From Massilibacillus massiliensis (GTDB lineage: Bacteria > Bacillota > Negativicutes > FLKF01): a stretch of DNA of 64,000 nt. Below the pieces are notes generated by a model. The model did no database searches, was not told the DNA's origin, and was given only the letters and a program-made list of their open reading frames with translations. Positions 13,236-56,719 of this stretch are shown one piece after another. The position numbers were made by a program, and so were the translations under genes. The DNA lies in NCBI RefSeq assembly GCF_900086705.1, contig NZ_LT575483.1, positions 621,166-685,165 on the forward strand, written 5' to 3'. How positions within the stretch are numbered: position 1 is the first letter of the stretch; every line of letters begins with the position of its first letter.

Positions 13236-14951
13236 TTAAATTTTAAACTTCCCAACTTCATCTTGTAATTCCATGGCAAGTTTAGATAAAGATTGACTTG
13301 CTGATGCGATCTCTTCCATAGATGCTGACTGTTCTTCAGTCGCAGCAGATACAGATTGTGCCTCACTTGAAGCTCCTTTACTTAATTGATCAATCTTTCT
13401 TACTGCTTCAACGATCCTTTGACTGCCCTCAGCCATATGTTCAATCGCTTGAGACATTTCCTTTACCTGACTAGATACTTGATTTACACTACCTGCGATA
13501 TCTTGGAATGCTTTTCCTGATTCATTGACAACTTCTGCACCAATTTTTACTTCTCTTGTACCTTCATCCATAGCAACAACGGCTTTTTCCGTTTCGCCTT
13601 GTATCTCACCAATTAATTCGGCAATTTGTTTCGCTGCCTCTTGTGATTGTTCTGCTAATTTGCGCACTTCTTCCGCAACAACAGCAAAACCACGCCCTTG
13701 TTCACCAGCACGCGCAGCTTCAATGGCAGCATTCAATGCTAATAAATTTGTCTGACCAGCAATCCCAGAAATTGTATCAACAATCTGTCCAATTTCTCTC
13801 GATCTTTCGCCTAAATTCATAACAACCTGCGCAGAAGAAATTACAGTTTGTTCAATAGATTTCATTTGACTTACAGATTTTTCAACTGCCGTATTTCCTT
13901 TTGTCGCCTCTTCTTCTGCTTTTACAGCTCGATCTGCGACTTCAGTAGCATTTGCAGAAATTTGTTGTATACTTGCAGAGATTTGCTCTACTGCCTCTGA
14001 TGTATGATCTGCTGATTTTAATTGTTCTTCAGCGCCTTTTGCCACTTCAGTGATTGAAATCGCAATTTGATTAGACGCTTGTGCCGACTGATCCGCACTT
14101 GCAGTCAATTCTTCTGAAGCTGCCGCTAGTTGCTCTGAGGAGCTGTTTACATGTTTCATCAGTGCACGCAAACTATCTCGCATCGTTGCCATAGCATCCG
14201 CTAATTGACCAATTTCATCTCTTCTTCTTATACTACGAGGTTTATCTCTAAAATCTCCTCCAGCCAATTCCTTGCAAACTGTTACCATAATGTTTAACGG
14301 CGTTACAACCTTCTTCGTTATATAAAGCCCACTTGCCCCTAATATAACAAAAGCAAGAAAAATAACAATCCCTGTAACTCTTGTTGCTTGTTCAGCGGTT
14401 TCCTTATCTTCATTTTTCATTTGTTCTGATATTTCAGCATAATAATCCGAAAACTCTTTCAGATTTGCACTAAACTCAATCGACAATGGAAGTACTTTAC
14501 TCGAATACAGTTGATACGCTTCCGCATTTTTATTTTGATCAACTAACGCAAGAACAGGCCCCCGTTCTTTACGATATTTCTCTTTCGCATCTTTAATTTT
14601 ATTTACAATTGCTTGTCCTTTTGCATCCAATTGCTCTTTTTCCAATTTCTCAAATACGACGTTCGTATTATTTACCTTTTCATCAATATACTTTTTTAAA
14701 TACTGATTTCTACTATGATCTGTATTGATTGTCAGTTCCAGCATCGCTTCACCTACAAGTGCCACATCAGCTCTGACCTCATTCACTTCTCTTACTGGAA
14801 TTAATCTCTTTTCATACATCACATGAATACTCTCATTGGCTTTTTGAAGATTATAGTATCCCATGCCACCGACAAAAATTACAACTAAAAATGCAGCCAA
14901 AATTAAACATCCAATTTTTAAATTTACTTTAAGATCATCAAAAAAATTCAT
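13236..14951 (-). CDS. Methyl-accepting chemotaxis protein, 4-helix-bundle sensor type
   Basis: 571 residues from the ATG at 14951 (GGAGAAGGAG upstream; the TTG at 14969 lies in the SD). Order: TM1 (residues 12-30), a 160-residue periplasmic four-helix bundle (4HB_MCP-like), TM2 (about 190-210), HAMP, then the cytoplasmic signalling domain with the conserved hairpin tip ([38 protein letters not shown]). It controls CheA and flagellar motion. The ligand is unknown. No CheBR pentapeptide at the C-terminus. Confidence 0.93.
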
Positions 14952-17670: not shown

Positions 17671-17866
17671 ATCGCCTCCCCATCGCTCGCAGGTCAATCG
17701 GTGATTGTTAATTAGGCAGTTCTCCTGGCTTTAGTTCATCGCAGCTCCAAACCTTCCCAAAATAAGCATTTCAGTGGTATATATAGAAGCAACTCACTAT
17801 TACAGTGGCGGGACCGCGTTGGCATTACACCAAACTTCCCTATTAAGTCTTTAGACACCTAACTCG
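17671..17866 (-). ncRNA. Cobalamin riboswitch 1 (upstream of ABC-2 exporter)
   Basis: Minus-strand core features: AGGGAAG and GGTG..AATGCCAACGCGGTCCCGCCACTGT, the B12 box AGCCAGGAGAACTGCC, and a 3' hairpin with loop ACCTGCGAG preceding CGATGGGGA. All four copies in the window share this layout. Adenosyl- or other cobalamin binding normally stops expression of the downstream gene. The first gene downstream is the ABC-2 exporter at 16497-17336. Confidence 0.9.
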
Positions 17867-17885
17867 TTTTATTCGATTTTGGTTC

Positions 17886-26094: not shown

Positions 26095-26290
26095 CCCCTT
26101 CCCATCGCTCGCAGGTCCAACGGTGATTTCTTGACAGGCAGTTCTCCTGGCTCTAGATCATCGCTACTCCAAACCTTCCCAAAAGTAAAACTTTCAGTGG
26201 TATATTCTTGGATTCGCTCCCTATTACAGTGGCGGGACCGCATCGGCATTCAACCGATTTCCCTATTAAGCCCTTACCGGGCACCCATCT
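26095..26290 (-). ncRNA. Cobalamin riboswitch 2 (upstream of cbiK)
   Basis: Carries the GGTCCCGCCACTGTAATAG core, GCCAGGAGAACTGCC B12 box, and the CACCGTTGGACCTGCGAG hairpin before CGATGGGAAGGGG. Expected to switch cbiK off when cobalamin is plentiful. Confidence 0.93.
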
Positions 26291-26343
26291 CAATGCTATT
26301 ATTTTTTCATATTATGAAATAAAGTATATTTATTACAAAGGTT

Positions 26344-41370: not shown

Positions 41371-41565
41371 CCCCTTCCCATCGCTCGCAGGTCTAACGGT
41401 GATTGTTAAACAGGCAGTTCTCCTGGCTCTAGTTCATCGCTCCTCCAAACCTTCTCAAAACAATCGTTTCAATGGTATATTCTTGGATTTGCTCCCTATT
41501 ACAGTGGCGGGACCGCGTTGGCTTTTAACCAAACTTCCCTATTAAGTCCATAAGGACACCTATTT
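41371..41565 (-). ncRNA. Cobalamin riboswitch 3 (upstream of mutA-mutB-meaB)
   Basis: Has the GGTCCCGCCACTGTAATAGGG core, GCCAGGAGAACTGCC B12 box, and CACCGTTAGACCTGCGAG hairpin before CGATGGGAAGGGG. Controlling a B12-dependent enzyme is unusual; most such riboswitches repress synthesis, transport or B12-independent isoenzymes. Confidence 0.93.
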
Positions 41566-41617
41566 CCAACAGTATTAAATTTTATAGTTAAACATTATTA
41601 TTTCATAATTCAAGATT

Positions 41618-44270: not shown

Positions 44271-44468
44271 TCCCCTTCCCCATCGCTCGCAGGTCAAACG
44301 GTGACTGTTAATTAGGCAGTTCTCCTGGCTCTAGTTCATCGCTTCTCCAAACCTTCTCAAAACAATCGTTCCAATGGCATATCTTGGAGTCGCTCCCTAT
44401 TACAGTGGCGGGACCGCGTTGGCTTCTAAACCAAACTTCCCTATTAAGTCCGTAAGGACACCTAACTC
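44271..44468 (-). ncRNA. Cobalamin riboswitch 4 (upstream of TonB receptor)
   Basis: Has the GCGGTCCCGCCACTGTAATAGGG core, GCCAGGAGAACTGCC B12 box, and the CACCGTTTGACCTGCGAG hairpin before CGATGGGGAAGGGG. Nearly the same as riboswitch 3 in its 5' half. Confidence 0.93.
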
Positions 44469-44513
44469 TTCCTATTCAATTTAAAGATGAAGTTCATCAC
44501 TTTCATCGGATTT

Positions 44514-50601: not shown

Positions 50602-50653
50602 TAATAAATAAAAATATCTGGTCTGCTAGCAGACCAGATATTTTTATTTATTA
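50602..50653 (-). terminator. Intrinsic terminator of the flavodoxin operon
   Basis: A perfect 52-bp palindrome centred on GCTAGC, with T-rich arms, overlapping the flavodoxin stop codon. Confidence 0.85.
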
Positions 50654-51076
50654 TTTTGCAAAACGTTCACCAAAAGCGTTGCATACTTCTTCACCCTCTT
50701 GATCCGGTGCATCACGCAAAATTAAACCTTGCTCAAATAAGTTTGCCTGATTACTCTTTACTCGTTCTTCCCAATCATGCATCCATTCGCCATTGCCCCA
50801 ACCGTAAGAACCAAATAGCGCTACTAATTTACCTTGCAGTTTAGCTTCAACAGACTCGAAAAACGGTGCAAACTCACTTTCTTCGAGTTCTTCACAGCCC
50901 ATCGAAGGACACCCAAAGGCGATTCGATCATATTGCTCTATGTCCTGATCATTGAAATCACCGACATGAAAAAGTTTTACCTCTTTCTCCACTCCTTCAA
51001 TGCCTTTTGCAATTGCCTGCGCCATTTTCTCTGTATTTCCTGATCCACTCCAATAAACCACTGCAATTTGACTCAT
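50651..51076 (-). CDS. Flavodoxin
   Basis: 141 residues. The FMN phosphate-binding loop SGSGNTEKMA (10-19), the GCPSMGCEELEE loop and the FGSYGWGNGEWM loop around the flavin are typical of short-chain clostridial flavodoxins. A soluble FMN electron carrier that replaces ferredoxin when iron is scarce. It lies 20 bp after DUF3793 and shares its Fur-controlled promoter. Confidence 0.95.
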   Translation of the reverse strand: MSQIAVVYWSGSGNTEKMAQAIAKGIEGVEKEVKLFHVGDFNDQDIEQYDRIAFGCPSMGCEELEESEFAPFFESVEAKLQGKLVALFGSYGWGNGEWMHDWEERVKSNQANLFEQGLILRDAPDQEGEEVCNAFGERFAK

Positions 51077-51095
51077 TGCTATGCCCCCTTAATAT

Positions 51096-51665
51096 TTAAA
51101 TCGCTTTTAAAAGTTTTTTAATAGATGTACCATTACTCAAATGTTTACAAAACACATTGGTGCATTTTGTATATTTTTCAAATAGTGCTTTGGCTCGTAT
51201 TTCGTCAGAATAAACTTTCCAATATCCACAAAGTTTAAAATTTTGTCCTTTATGTTCGATGAAACCACTCACATCTTCGGCCGGATAACCTAAAAATAAA
51301 CCAATTTCGTGCGGAAAAGTTTTTGTTAACGACATACGTATTTTTAGATGATTTAGATGGCTTTCGATGCTATCTCCTTTTTTATAACCAAATCTTGTAA
51401 GAATTTTTTCTCCCTCGATTTGATTCAATACTTTCTGAAGCCTAGACTTTCGATAAACCAAGATTAAGGTATACTTCGTGCTATTAGATAAAACAAAAAA
51501 GAAAATATCTTTACAATTTAGACAGCATTCATATTCTTGCAATAAGCTAAAAAAATCAGCAAATTTATCTTTTGCACAGGAAATCAAGCTTGCTGACTTT
51601 ATTCCCACTAATGTTGGTGCACAATGAAATGCTAGTAATCTCTCAAAATGCTTATCTTCTTTCAT
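51096..51665 (-). CDS. DUF3793 family protein
   Basis: 189 residues. Family hallmarks: HCAPTLVGIKSASLIS at the start, FPHEIGLFLGYPAEDVSGFIEH in the middle and CGYWKVYSDEIRAKALFEKYTKCTNVF near the end. Function unknown. SD GGGGGAA, 5 nt before the ATG. It is the first gene of an operon with flavodoxin, under a promoter fused to a Fur box, implying a role when iron is limiting. Confidence 0.88.
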   Translation of the reverse strand: MKEDKHFERLLAFHCAPTLVGIKSASLISCAKDKFADFFSLLQEYECCLNCKDIFFFVLSNSTKYTLILVYRKSRLQKVLNQIEGEKILTRFGYKKGDSIESHLNHLKIRMSLTKTFPHEIGLFLGYPAEDVSGFIEHKGQNFKLCGYWKVYSDEIRAKALFEKYTKCTNVFCKHLSNGTSIKKLLKAI

Positions 51666-51707: not shown

Positions 51708-51751
51708 ATTATAATCCATATGATAATGATTTTCAATATCATATGGATTAT
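51708..51751 (-). promoter_or_regulatory. Fur-box promoter of DUF3793-flavodoxin
   Basis: -35 TTGAAA (51731-51736), 17-bp spacer, -10 TATAAT (51708-51713). GATAATGATTTTCAATATC (51722-51740) matches 16 of 19 positions of the Fur consensus and overlaps the -35 and spacer. It lies in a larger perfect inverted repeat with 15-bp arms (51711-51725, 51737-51751). Confidence 0.8.
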
Positions 51752-51800
51752 AATAAAAAATTTTTCTTTCCATCTTCTTACTTTATTTAAAAATAGACAC

Positions 51801-51877
51801 AAAAAAAGTTTACCTGAGCATAGTAAACTTTTTTGCGTGTATTTTATATTTTGGAGAGCCTCTATGAAAAGCTATGT
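51801..51877 (-). ncRNA. Putative Fur-regulated small RNA, copy 1
   Basis: Predicted about 77-nt minus-strand RNA. It starts near 51877, 5-7 nt after the -10, and ends at a perfect 12-bp terminator stem (51802-51813 / 51823-51834, AAAAAAGTTTAC / GTAAACTTTTTT). The 5' half is free of strong structure and holds GGCUCUCC, which can pair with GGAGAG Shine-Dalgarno sequences. The design is that of iron-sparing sRNAs (PrrF, RyhB, FsrA) but no sequence match to them is claimed. Confidence 0.65.
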
Positions 51878-51881
51878 CTAT

Positions 51882-51917
51882 ACTATAACACATTTGATAT
51901 TGAGAATCAATATCAAA
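51882..51917 (-). promoter_or_regulatory. Promoter and Fur-like box of sRNA copy 1
   Basis: -35 TTGATT (51905-51910), 17-bp spacer, -10 TATAGT (51882-51887). GATATTGAGAATCAATATC (51896-51914) matches 16 of 19 Fur consensus positions and is a 10-bp-arm palindrome (51893-51917) lying over the -35 and spacer. Confidence 0.75.
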
Positions 51918-51943
51918 TTATAAATTTATTTAAAAATAGGCAC

Positions 51944-52021
51944 AAAAAAAGTTTACCTGAGCATAGTAAACTTTTTTTGCGTGTATTTTATATTTTGGAG
52001 AGCCTCTATGAAAAGCTATGT
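51944..52021 (-). ncRNA. Putative Fur-regulated small RNA, copy 2
   Basis: Same as copy 1 over its whole length apart from one extra T in the 3' part; about 78 nt. Terminator stem 51945-51956 / 51966-51977 with a T-run. The anti-SD word GGCUCUCC is unchanged. Confidence 0.65.
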
Positions 52022-52025
52022 CTAT

Positions 52026-52067
52026 ACTATAACACATTTGATATTGAGAATCAATATCAAATGTGTT
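52026..52067 (-). promoter_or_regulatory. Promoter and Fur-like box of sRNA copy 2
   Basis: -35 TTGATT (52049-52054), 17-bp spacer, -10 TATAGT (52026-52031). The Fur-like box at 52040-52058 is the same as in copy 1, but the palindrome extends to 16-bp arms (52031-52067). It lies 14 bp from the map stop codon, so sRNA 2 could also receive read-through from map. Confidence 0.75.
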
Positions 52068-52080
52068 ATTTTTTTAAAAT

Positions 52081-52953
52081 TTATTTTGCTAAAATTTCGA
52101 CCCCTGTTTCCGTAATGACAATTGTATGTTCCCATTGCGCTGATAAAGAACCATCCTTCGTATAAACCGTCCAATTATCTTTCTTATCCGTATATACTTT
52201 ATAGTCTCCACAATTGATCATCGGTTCCACAGTTAACACCATTCCTGGAACTAATAACATTCCAGTACCACGTTTTCCTACATGAGGCACAAAAGGTTCT
52301 TCATGGATTTTCTTTCCTACACCGTGTCCGCCTAAATCAACAACAACAGAGTATCCATTGGCATGCGCATATTGCTCTACAGCTTCACCAATGTCACCTA
52401 AATAGCCCCACGGCTGAATCGCAGCAATTCCCTTTTCCATACATTCTCTTGCGACATTTACAAGCTTTTCTGCTTTTTCACTGACTGTTCCTATCATAAA
52501 CATCCGTGAAGCATCTGCATAATATCCACCCAGAGCTGTTGTAATATCAACATTTACGATATCGCCTTCTTTTAAAATTGTTTTTTTAGATGGAATTCCG
52601 TGACATACCACATTGTTAATCGAAATACAAGTACTCTTTGGATATCCATGATAATTTAGACACGCAGGGATTCCACCTTGCTGCACAATATAATCATGTG
52701 CAATTTGATCTAACGATTCTGTATCGATACCAGCTTTTATATGCGCAGCGATTAAATCCAATGCGCCACCATTAATTTGCGCACTCTTTTTTATGCCTGC
52801 AATATCTGCTTCATTTTTAATCGAACTTCGCGGCGGTAGCAAATGACCTTTAAAGACATCAAGTTTTATACTCTTCATTTTTTCATCAAAGCTTAAATGA
52901 CATTTTTTATACTTTATCCCACTACCACACCAACATTGACCGTTTCTATCCAT
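52081..52953 (-). CDS. map: Type I methionine aminopeptidase with N-terminal SEC-C zinc motif
   Basis: 290 residues. Residues 1-25 hold a SEC-C motif (CWCGSGIKYKKCH). The pita-bread domain has metal ligands D in NVDITTALGGYYADASRMF, H in GHGVGKKIHEEP, and E in VLTVEPMIN and WEHTIVIT. It removes N-terminal methionine from nascent proteins. The SEC-C extension is common in Firmicutes second Map copies. Confidence 0.94.
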   Translation of the reverse strand: MDRNGQCWCGSGIKYKKCHLSFDEKMKSIKLDVFKGHLLPPRSSIKNEADIAGIKKSAQINGGALDLIAAHIKAGIDTESLDQIAHDYIVQQGGIPACLNYHGYPKSTCISINNVVCHGIPSKKTILKEGDIVNVDITTALGGYYADASRMFMIGTVSEKAEKLVNVARECMEKGIAAIQPWGYLGDIGEAVEQYAHANGYSVVVDLGGHGVGKKIHEEPFVPHVGKRGTGMLLVPGMVLTVEPMINCGDYKVYTDKKDNWTVYTKDGSLSAQWEHTIVITETGVEILAK

Positions 52954-55553: not shown

Positions 55554-56675
55554 TCAAGCTTCAAAAACAGCCGCAACGTCTTCCAGATGCTTCGTAATAT
55601 CAATATGCTGCGGGCAGCTTCTTTCACATTGTTTACAGTTAATGCACTCTGATGCTTTCCCATGTGTTTTCGTGTAATTATCGTAATATACCCTTTGTAT
55701 CGAAAAGCCTTTACTTAAAGATTGTTTTTCTGTGTTATACAATGCAAAATATCTCGGAATATCTATATGTTTCGGGCACTTATCTACACAGTATTGACAG
55801 GCCGTACAAGGGATTGCAATCGCTTCATGCAAAATTTGTACTGCTTTCTTCACTATATCATACTCTTCTTCTACAAATGGCTTTAAGTTCTGCATATAAT
55901 CTGTGTTATCAAGCAATTGCTCCATGTCAGACATTCCACTTAGCACCATCATAATCCCTTCATGACTTGCTGCAAAGCGGATCGCCCATGAAGGAATCGA
56001 CAGATCCGGATGATATCCTTTAAATAATGTTGCCACTCGTTCTGGCACTTTGGCAAGCATTCCACCTTTTACCGGTTCCATAACAATCACTGGCTTGCGA
56101 TGCTTTCTTGCTACTTCATAACATTTCCTTGATTGAATTCCAGCGTCCTCCCAATCAAGATAATTGATTTGTAATTGCACGAAATCTACTTCCGGATGTG
56201 CTGTTAGAATTTCATCAAGTAAATCAGCACGGTCATGAAAAGAAAAACCAACCTGCTTTATTTTGCCGGCTTGCTTTTTTTCCTGAACAAAAGCAAAGCT
56301 ATCAAATTTTTGTGCTGTCTGATAGTTCGTAACCCCAAGGTTATGAAGCAAATAATAGTCAAAGTACTCCACACCGCATTTTTCTAACTGCTCATCAAAA
56401 ATACGTTCTTGATCTCCCTCTTTTTTCAAAAACATCGTTGGTAATTTGGTTGCTAAAGTAAAACTTTCTCTTTTATGCCGTTTTACCAACGCTTCTCTAA
56501 TGGCCTCCTCGCTTTTCCCTGCATGATACATATACGCTGTATCAAAATAAGTAAAACCTCTCTCTATGAAAGTATCCACCATCTGATTTAACGTATCCAT
56601 ATCAATGCTTGTTGCATCATTTTTGTCTTGCAGTGGTAAGCGCATAAAACCAAATCCTAATTTTTTCTTTTCCAT
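55554..56675 (-). CDS. Aldo/keto reductase with C-terminal 4Fe-4S ferredoxin domain
   Basis: 373 residues from the ATG at 56675 (GAGGAGAGAG upstream; the longer frame to 56693 includes the SD). AKR barrel: [20 protein letters not shown] (D, Y), K in TLATKLPT, H in YYLLHNL. The C-terminus has two cluster motifs, [12 protein letters not shown] and [12 protein letters not shown]. Electrons likely pass between the Fe-S clusters and NAD(P)H or another donor. Substrate unknown. It demands iron, and its SD contains the GGAGAG word complementary to the sRNAs at 51.8-52.0 kb. Confidence 0.9.
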
Positions 56676-56719
56676 AGTAAACTCTCTCCTCAATTATTTT
56701 CTACTTTTAAAATACACTT

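Follow-up and report, generated by a model that had tools for sequence, protein, structure and literature searches.

Two near-identical small RNA genes lie in tandem on the minus strand of the window (the whole 64-kb stretch of Massilibacillus DNA analysed here), and they very probably encode trans-acting RNAs of about 77 nt that are controlled by Fur and spare iron. Judged from sequence, they belong to a new, non-homologous and uncatalogued family of the Fur-repressed, iron-sparing kind. The RNA is probably made only under iron scarcity and would then block the synthesis of iron-containing proteins such as rubrerythrin. An iron-sparing role had been proposed in a first-pass annotation of the locus, and it gains support from the Fur-type promoter, the terminated non-coding transcript, the anti-Shine-Dalgarno (anti-SD) core and the iron-protein targets predicted here.

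The locus is a direct duplication in which positions 51775-51834 match 51918-51977 (93% identity, spacing 143 bp) and positions 51829-51935 match 51973-52079 (94% identity, spacing 144 bp), so that the 143-bp repeat described in the first-pass annotation is real. On one side of it lies a methionine aminopeptidase gene (52081-52953), on the other a DUF3793-flavodoxin operon (50651-51665), and the 4-Mb window genome holds these two copies only, no further one having been found. Both copies carry a sigma-70 promoter on the minus strand, with the hexamers and spacing reported earlier (Table 1), and the -10 and -35 are retained in homologues. Each predicted RNA ends at its own intrinsic terminator, GTTTAC-N9-GTAAAC with A- and T-runs, and the earlier identification of this element is borne out both by the sequence and by co-variation in its stem. 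The predicted lengths of 77-78 nt and the CU-rich anti-SD word are likewise as first described. The RNA had also been said to contain about 50 nt without strong structure; this holds for CUCCAAAAUAUAAAAUACAC, which folding places single-stranded between a 5' hairpin and the terminator, and it overlooks that 7-bp hairpin (AGCUUUU/AGAGGCU), which partly covers GGCUCU. The duplicated anatomy exceeds chance, as seen from the folding z-scores of the two copies (-4.9 and -2.9) and from a 38-nt core that four copies, two in each of two genomes, share unchanged. Elsewhere in the window there are four cobalamin riboswitches, all on the minus strand (17698-17877, 26120-26303, 41396-41578 and 44298-44480).

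Table 1. Features of the tandem sRNA locus and of related sites, in window coordinates.
Feature	Positions	Strand	Details
sRNA copy B	51944-52021	minus	predicted, ~78 nt, from promoter and terminator positions; predicted 5' end ~52021, 3' end in T-run at 51944; R2 E 5.8e-7
sRNA copy A	51801-51877	minus	predicted, ~77 nt, anatomy as copy B; predicted 5' end ~51877, 3' end at 51801; R2 E 3.7e-6
Copy B promoter	52026-52054	minus	-35 TTGATT 52049-52054, 17-bp spacer, -10 TATAGT 52026-52031
Copy A promoter	51882-51910	minus	-35 TTGATT 51905-51910, 17-bp spacer, -10 TATAGT 51882-51887
Copy B Fur box	52040-52058	minus	GATATTGATTCTCAATATC, 16/19; in perfect palindrome 52029-52069 with 19-bp arms
Copy A Fur box	51896-51914	minus	GATATTGATTCTCAATATC, 16/19; from sequence
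Copy B invariant core	51981-52018	minus	38 nt, TAGCTTTTCATAGAGGCTCTCCAAAATATAAAATACAC; identical in two window and two G001 copies
Copy A invariant core	51837-51874	minus	38 nt; identical in two window and two G001 copies
Copy B anti-SD	51997-52002	minus	CUCUCC, within the 38-nt core
Copy A anti-SD	51853-51858	minus	CUCUCC, within the 38-nt core
Copy B terminator	51944-51978	minus	A-tract, GTTTAC, loop TATGCTCAG (51957-51965), GTAAAC, T-tract
Copy A terminator	51801-51834	minus	GTTTAC, loop TATGCTCAG (51814-51822), GTAAAC, T-tract
Fur-type palindrome and promoter of DUF3793-flavodoxin operon (51665-50651)	51711-51755	minus	separate transcription unit
Candidate site in aldo/keto reductase leader (ORF 55554-56675)	56684-56717	minus	GTGTATTTTA ... 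GGAGAG

The palindromic box over the -35 and spacer, which had been said to agree with the Fur consensus at 16 of 19 positions, is confirmed in both copies. When the 70 nt upstream of each homologous match were scanned, a site with at least 14 of the 19 consensus positions was found in 84% of 49 distinct copies, compared with 0.16% of controls (equal stretches taken from the same loci). The box mostly ends 20-21 nt ahead of the first base of the covariance model, or 14 nt in some registers, which places it across the -35 and the spacer; in the homologues it is followed by a TATATTAT-like -10. A Fur box overlapping the sRNA promoter is thus conserved in relatives, and Fur would be expected to bind there. 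A few copies (L044, L048 and L050) lack the box, which may mean that certain paralogues are under another control or in decay. The loss in L048 (also L249) concerns Selenomonas ruminantium TAM6421, which has copies both on plasmid pSRC1 (NC_017078.1, 153999-168192) and on its largest contig.

Several of the Fur-type boxes sit within very long perfect or near-perfect palindromes with arms of 19-23 bp (window 51711-51755 and 52029-52069; L009 ~1501-1549). These have -10-like sequences at both ends, and their outer arms are compensated in the second Massilibacillus genome introduced below; such a long dyad might accommodate additional Fur dimers or a pair of divergent promoters. The first of them belongs to the adjoining flavodoxin operon, whose Fur box had been recognised in the first pass. 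A Fur-type palindrome is also found upstream of a DUF3793-like gene in family f6 (G005, L008 ~1501-1543; G024, L010 ~1501-1542), which suggests that the DUF3793-like protein is generally iron-regulated.

Both copies and the identical gene order are present in a Massilibacillus sp. MAG (G001; JARBTT010000033.1), and the 38 nt of TAGCTTTTCATAGAGGCTCTCCAAAATATAAAATACAC do not vary among the four copies. The terminator stem of the MAG is altered on both sides, from GTTTAC/GTAAAC to GCTTAC/GTAAGC, and most of its loop, ATGCTCAGG, is unchanged. The upstream flanks match A to A and B to B between the genomes (window 51799-52069; L007 1336-1640), and the sRNA bodies are more alike within one genome than between the two, which makes an old duplication followed by concerted evolution the likely history. 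An exact pattern scan of genome contigs matched this MAG alone, and covariance models were needed to reveal the family. The first of these (R1), made from the four copies, gave many matches in one family, f11; the second (R2), made from 17 f11 copies only with the window sequences excluded, returned exactly the two loci in the window genome (E 5.8e-7 and 3.7e-6). At E <= 0.01, R2 matches 142 of 380 genomes of the class, with 1-7 copies per genome, nearly all of them from f11 and two Massilibacillus-type families; the hits fall in 24 genera. Outside the class, 3 of ~290 genomes in a phylum-wide sample match (E 3e-4 to 4e-3), about the chance expectation at that cut-off, and viral contigs gave no match to the Selenomonas core. 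The match in the f11 genome G259 has coordinates that coincide with pSRC1 of S. ruminantium TAM6421 (NC_017078.1, Selenomonadaceae), where no listed gene lies beneath it, and from that one identification we take f11 to be Selenomonadaceae. The covariance search of related Negativicutes, suggested in the first-pass annotation, thus reveals a family across the Selenomonadaceae, and the repeats are present in relatives.

On the R2 alignment the terminator shows compensatory change in 12 of 13 pairs, 96.9% of cells pair, and for no measure do more than 2 of 500 shuffles attain the observed value. The loop TGCTCA is invariant in all 17 aligned copies; a divergent copy outside the alignment, L046, has a different loop. 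This pattern bears on two other ways of reading the repeat. Its direct duplication, long palindromes and occurrence in up to seven copies per Selenomonas genome would suit a functionless repeat spread as mobile sequence, but the 4-Mb window genome has only two copies, and its terminator stem varies freely, with compensating changes, whereas promoter, core and loop are under constraint; we regard such an origin as vanishingly improbable. The plus strand, for its part, offers a good Shine-Dalgarno sequence and start codon (GGAGAG followed by ATG AAA AGC TAT...), and the repeat might be a type I toxin-antitoxin locus in which the minus-strand RNA is the antitoxin to a peptide. Type I toxin-antitoxin systems are often tandem repeats, as here. 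It is the minus strand, however, that keeps promoter, Fur box, core and terminator in relatives, and we rejected the peptide gene on finding that its frame breaks after five codons in copy B of the MAG and that the Selenomonas copies have no ATG. A toxin-antitoxin function is therefore highly improbable, and the locus has the make-up of an intergenic gene for a short non-coding RNA that carries a terminator of its own, opposite a reading frame that is not conserved.

Only the two Massilibacillus-type genomes have the tandem arrangement. In Selenomonadaceae most copies are dispersed, and in other genera unrelated genes adjoin the RNA (MFS transporter, Csm6, histidine kinase, phosphoesterase, C_GCAxxG protein). 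Gene neighbourhoods that differ among genera fit the expectation for a trans-acting RNA. They also argue, together with the dispersal of up to seven copies per genome, against a Fur-controlled terminated leader that would act in cis, by attenuation, on the downstream DUF3793-flavodoxin operon. In both Massilibacillus-type genomes the RNA does share the strand of that operon and lies directly upstream of it, and in G178 (contig 125; L247/L187) an sRNA gene (14008-14088) lies ~107 nt upstream of the gene of its main predicted target, rubrerythrin (14195-14731). The operon has a Fur-type promoter of its own, however, between it and copy A, and regulation in cis appears quite unlikely.

For an RNA acting in trans, candidate targets in the window's genome were sought among 829 translation-initiation regions, taken from the window and forty 20-kb stretches (about one fifth of the genome). 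With a 22-nt core, first of the 829 is a rubredoxin-plus-rubrerythrin protein (-20.4 kcal/mol), which pairs in two blocks, GTGTATTTTATA and TTTTGGAG, and third is a 4Fe-4S aldo/keto reductase (-17.4 kcal/mol). An extended RNA segment brings the two into a tie for first at -22.4 kcal/mol, with a Nitro_FeMo-Co family protein fourth. The rubrerythrin energy was reached in 0 of 5000 trials with tail-shuffled RNA, and the orthologue in G001 keeps the site (fraction 2e-4). Among the in-window targets proposed in the first pass, the aldo/keto reductase, joint first with the extended segment, stands as a candidate; the Nif11-like gene pairs weakly, at -10.5 kcal/mol with the core and -16.6 kcal/mol with a 5' extension. 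We also considered the aldo/keto reductase as a target conserved beyond the genus and rejected it, the site not being kept in orthologues of other genera. The bipartite pattern TGTATTTTA..GGAG has 26 matches in the two Massilibacillus-type genomes, compared with 18 for the control, and these are convincing only for rubrerythrin and the aldo/keto reductase; matches to ATATTTTGGAG in the same genomes include only the G001 rubrerythrin as noteworthy. Over all 829 regions the duplex energies of the real RNA are no better than those of tail-shuffled RNAs (not significant), and in the face of this the support for targets comes mainly from comparison between species.

In Selenomonadaceae that have the RNA, rubrerythrin leaders mostly pair with it at -18 to -31 kcal/mol, compared with -7 to -13.5 kcal/mol in five genomes of families without it. 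The leader in G235 contains an almost continuous complement, GTGTATTATATTTTAGGAGGGC; pairing is weaker in G288, G289, G178, G028 and the g64 genomes, all of which are sRNA-bearing. The RNA core itself differs among lineages, being CUCCAAAAUAU in Massilibacillus types, CUCCAAAUAU in genus g64 and CUCCUAAAAUAUA in most Selenomonadaceae. Massilibacillus-type and g64 rubrerythrin sites form their best duplex with the RNA of their own lineage, and most Selenomonadaceae sites also prefer their own, the g76-type core tying with it or slightly exceeding it in a few. Such joint change of RNA core and rubrerythrin site is what direct pairing predicts, and judged by these comparisons rubrerythrin is the best-supported target.

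A wider set of predicted targets comes from exact matches to the 13-mer TATATTTTAGGAG, the complement of the Selenomonas core. Of its 49 occurrences in 20 f11 genomes, about half are the RNA genes themselves. The remainder lie mostly before iron genes: rubrerythrin in seven species and a second rubrerythrin, RnfC, a DUF362 4Fe-4S protein, the Mrp Fe-S carrier (two species), the radical SAM protein MqnE, a GltA-like Fer4 oxidoreductase and a ferredoxin. The others precede DnaK, PstC, UbiA, a C_GCAxxG protein and one unknown protein. All five matches in G261 concern iron or Fe-S proteins; G163, whose RNA lacks TATATTTTAGGAG, has three, before a citrate-type transporter, an aminotransferase and a tetrapyrrole methylase. 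A shuffled 13-mer gave four matches, none before an iron-protein gene. Counted by protein family, the iron share is 8 of 13 compared with 0 of 6 (Fisher p 0.007, two unclear families excluded), a result from small target counts in related species that are not independent. The RNA is complementary to the initiation regions of iron-protein genes, and this complementarity is conserved between species. CUCUCC nevertheless fits many ribosome binding sites, and the RNA might damp translation generally, its CU-rich word pairing with any strong Shine-Dalgarno sequence and serving no defined iron regulon, as the unexceptional energies over all initiation regions of its own genome might suggest. Conservation reaches 16-20 nt past the anti-SD word, however, iron proteins dominate the extended matches and the core co-varies with its cognate rubrerythrin site, all of which make a general damper unlikely.

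A second contact with the rubrerythrin messenger is conceivable, and we put it forward tentatively: with the core bound at the ribosome binding site, the terminator loop UGCUCA might pair with UGAGCA upstream in the leader. If so, the terminator hairpin would be a target-reading device besides stopping transcription. Of 20 rubrerythrin leaders from sRNA-bearing genomes, 14 contain GAGCA and 9 contain TGAGCA, against backgrounds of 22% and 8% per 140 nt; after the TATAAT of the promoter these are the commonest such words in the leaders, and the loop complement is found in 7 of 12 genera. GAGCA lies upstream of the core site, an order that fits antiparallel pairing, and the loop is conserved though the stem changes freely. 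The complement of the loop is also present in the MqnE leader and one Mrp leader, and likewise in the non-iron DnaK, PstC and UbiA leaders. It is absent from both Massilibacillus-type rubrerythrin leaders and from most other targets. Because the element is missing in several leaders and the word was spotted post hoc, we treat this contact as a hypothesis.

We infer from these features that the RNAs are expressed, and specifically on loss of iron, and that they act negatively in the cell, possibly with a chaperone. When iron is plentiful, Fur would cover the -35 and spacer and block transcription; when iron is scarce, both genes would be transcribed, each transcript ending at its own terminator. 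In iron-protein mRNAs the single-stranded CUCUCC-AAAAUAUAAAAUACAC would then pair with the Shine-Dalgarno sequence and with an A/U-rich stretch that precedes it, ribosome binding would be blocked and iron spared. The rubredoxin-plus-rubrerythrin protein is the best supported of the putative targets, and the aldo/keto reductase is a second candidate in the window genome.

This predicted mode of action resembles that of several known RNAs. FsrA of Bacillus subtilis is 84 nt long, Fur-repressed and iron-sparing, and uses C-rich anti-SD pairing (PMC12871923, PMC9410917); the Massilibacillus RNA is like it in size, predicted Fur control, C-rich pairing and presumed role. Unlike FsrA, which is partly supported by FbpABC, its predicted targets centre on rubrerythrin and its pairing extends upstream of the Shine-Dalgarno sequence; no Rfam family matched the RNA, in a library that may lack an FsrA model. 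The Fur-repressed IsrR of Staphylococcus directs C-rich regions against the Shine-Dalgarno sequences of Fe-S enzyme mRNAs (PMC9410917), and shares with the present RNA a Fur box at the promoter and that type of pairing. IsrR has three stem-loops, three C-rich regions and a poorly conserved terminator sequence, whereas the Massilibacillus/Selenomonas RNA has a single core and a terminator loop that is conserved. PrrF1/PrrF2 of Pseudomonas aeruginosa are tandem, near-identical, Fur-repressed iron-sparing RNAs (PMC7948967), and the likeness to them is one of layout (a pair 143/144 bp apart with 93-94% identity), with Fur repression and iron sparing predicted here; there is no sequence relation, the phylum is different and the paired layout occurs only in the two Massilibacillus-type genomes. 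RyhB of enterobacteria is likewise a Fur-repressed RNA that lowers iron-using proteins; it is Hfq-dependent (PMC9410917) and unrelated in sequence, and the pairing of the Massilibacillus RNA is centred instead on a C/U-rich anti-SD word. An Rfam scan of the window, taken as far as E 10, gave neither PrrF nor any other known iron sRNA, and no relevant family reached gathering level. The first-pass description of the locus as PrrF/FsrA-like is thus apt for its design and, as far as tested, does not extend to descent: FsrA, IsrR and PrrF show no sequence relation to it, so that the RNA would work like them without being one of them.

We found no report of a Fur-controlled sRNA for Negativicutes in the open-access literature, and two earlier ncRNA discovery papers mention Negativicutes motifs, none of which, in the passages searched, corresponds to this RNA. 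The family appears to be a further independent case of RyhB/FsrA-like control. It would add an uncatalogued RNA, found in at least 142 of 380 genomes, for which an iron regulon is predicted and whose evolution together with its target can be seen. Cultured strains, S. ruminantium TAM6421 among them, allow direct tests of how the Negativicutes, diderm Firmicutes that live in gut, mouth and rumen, spare iron.
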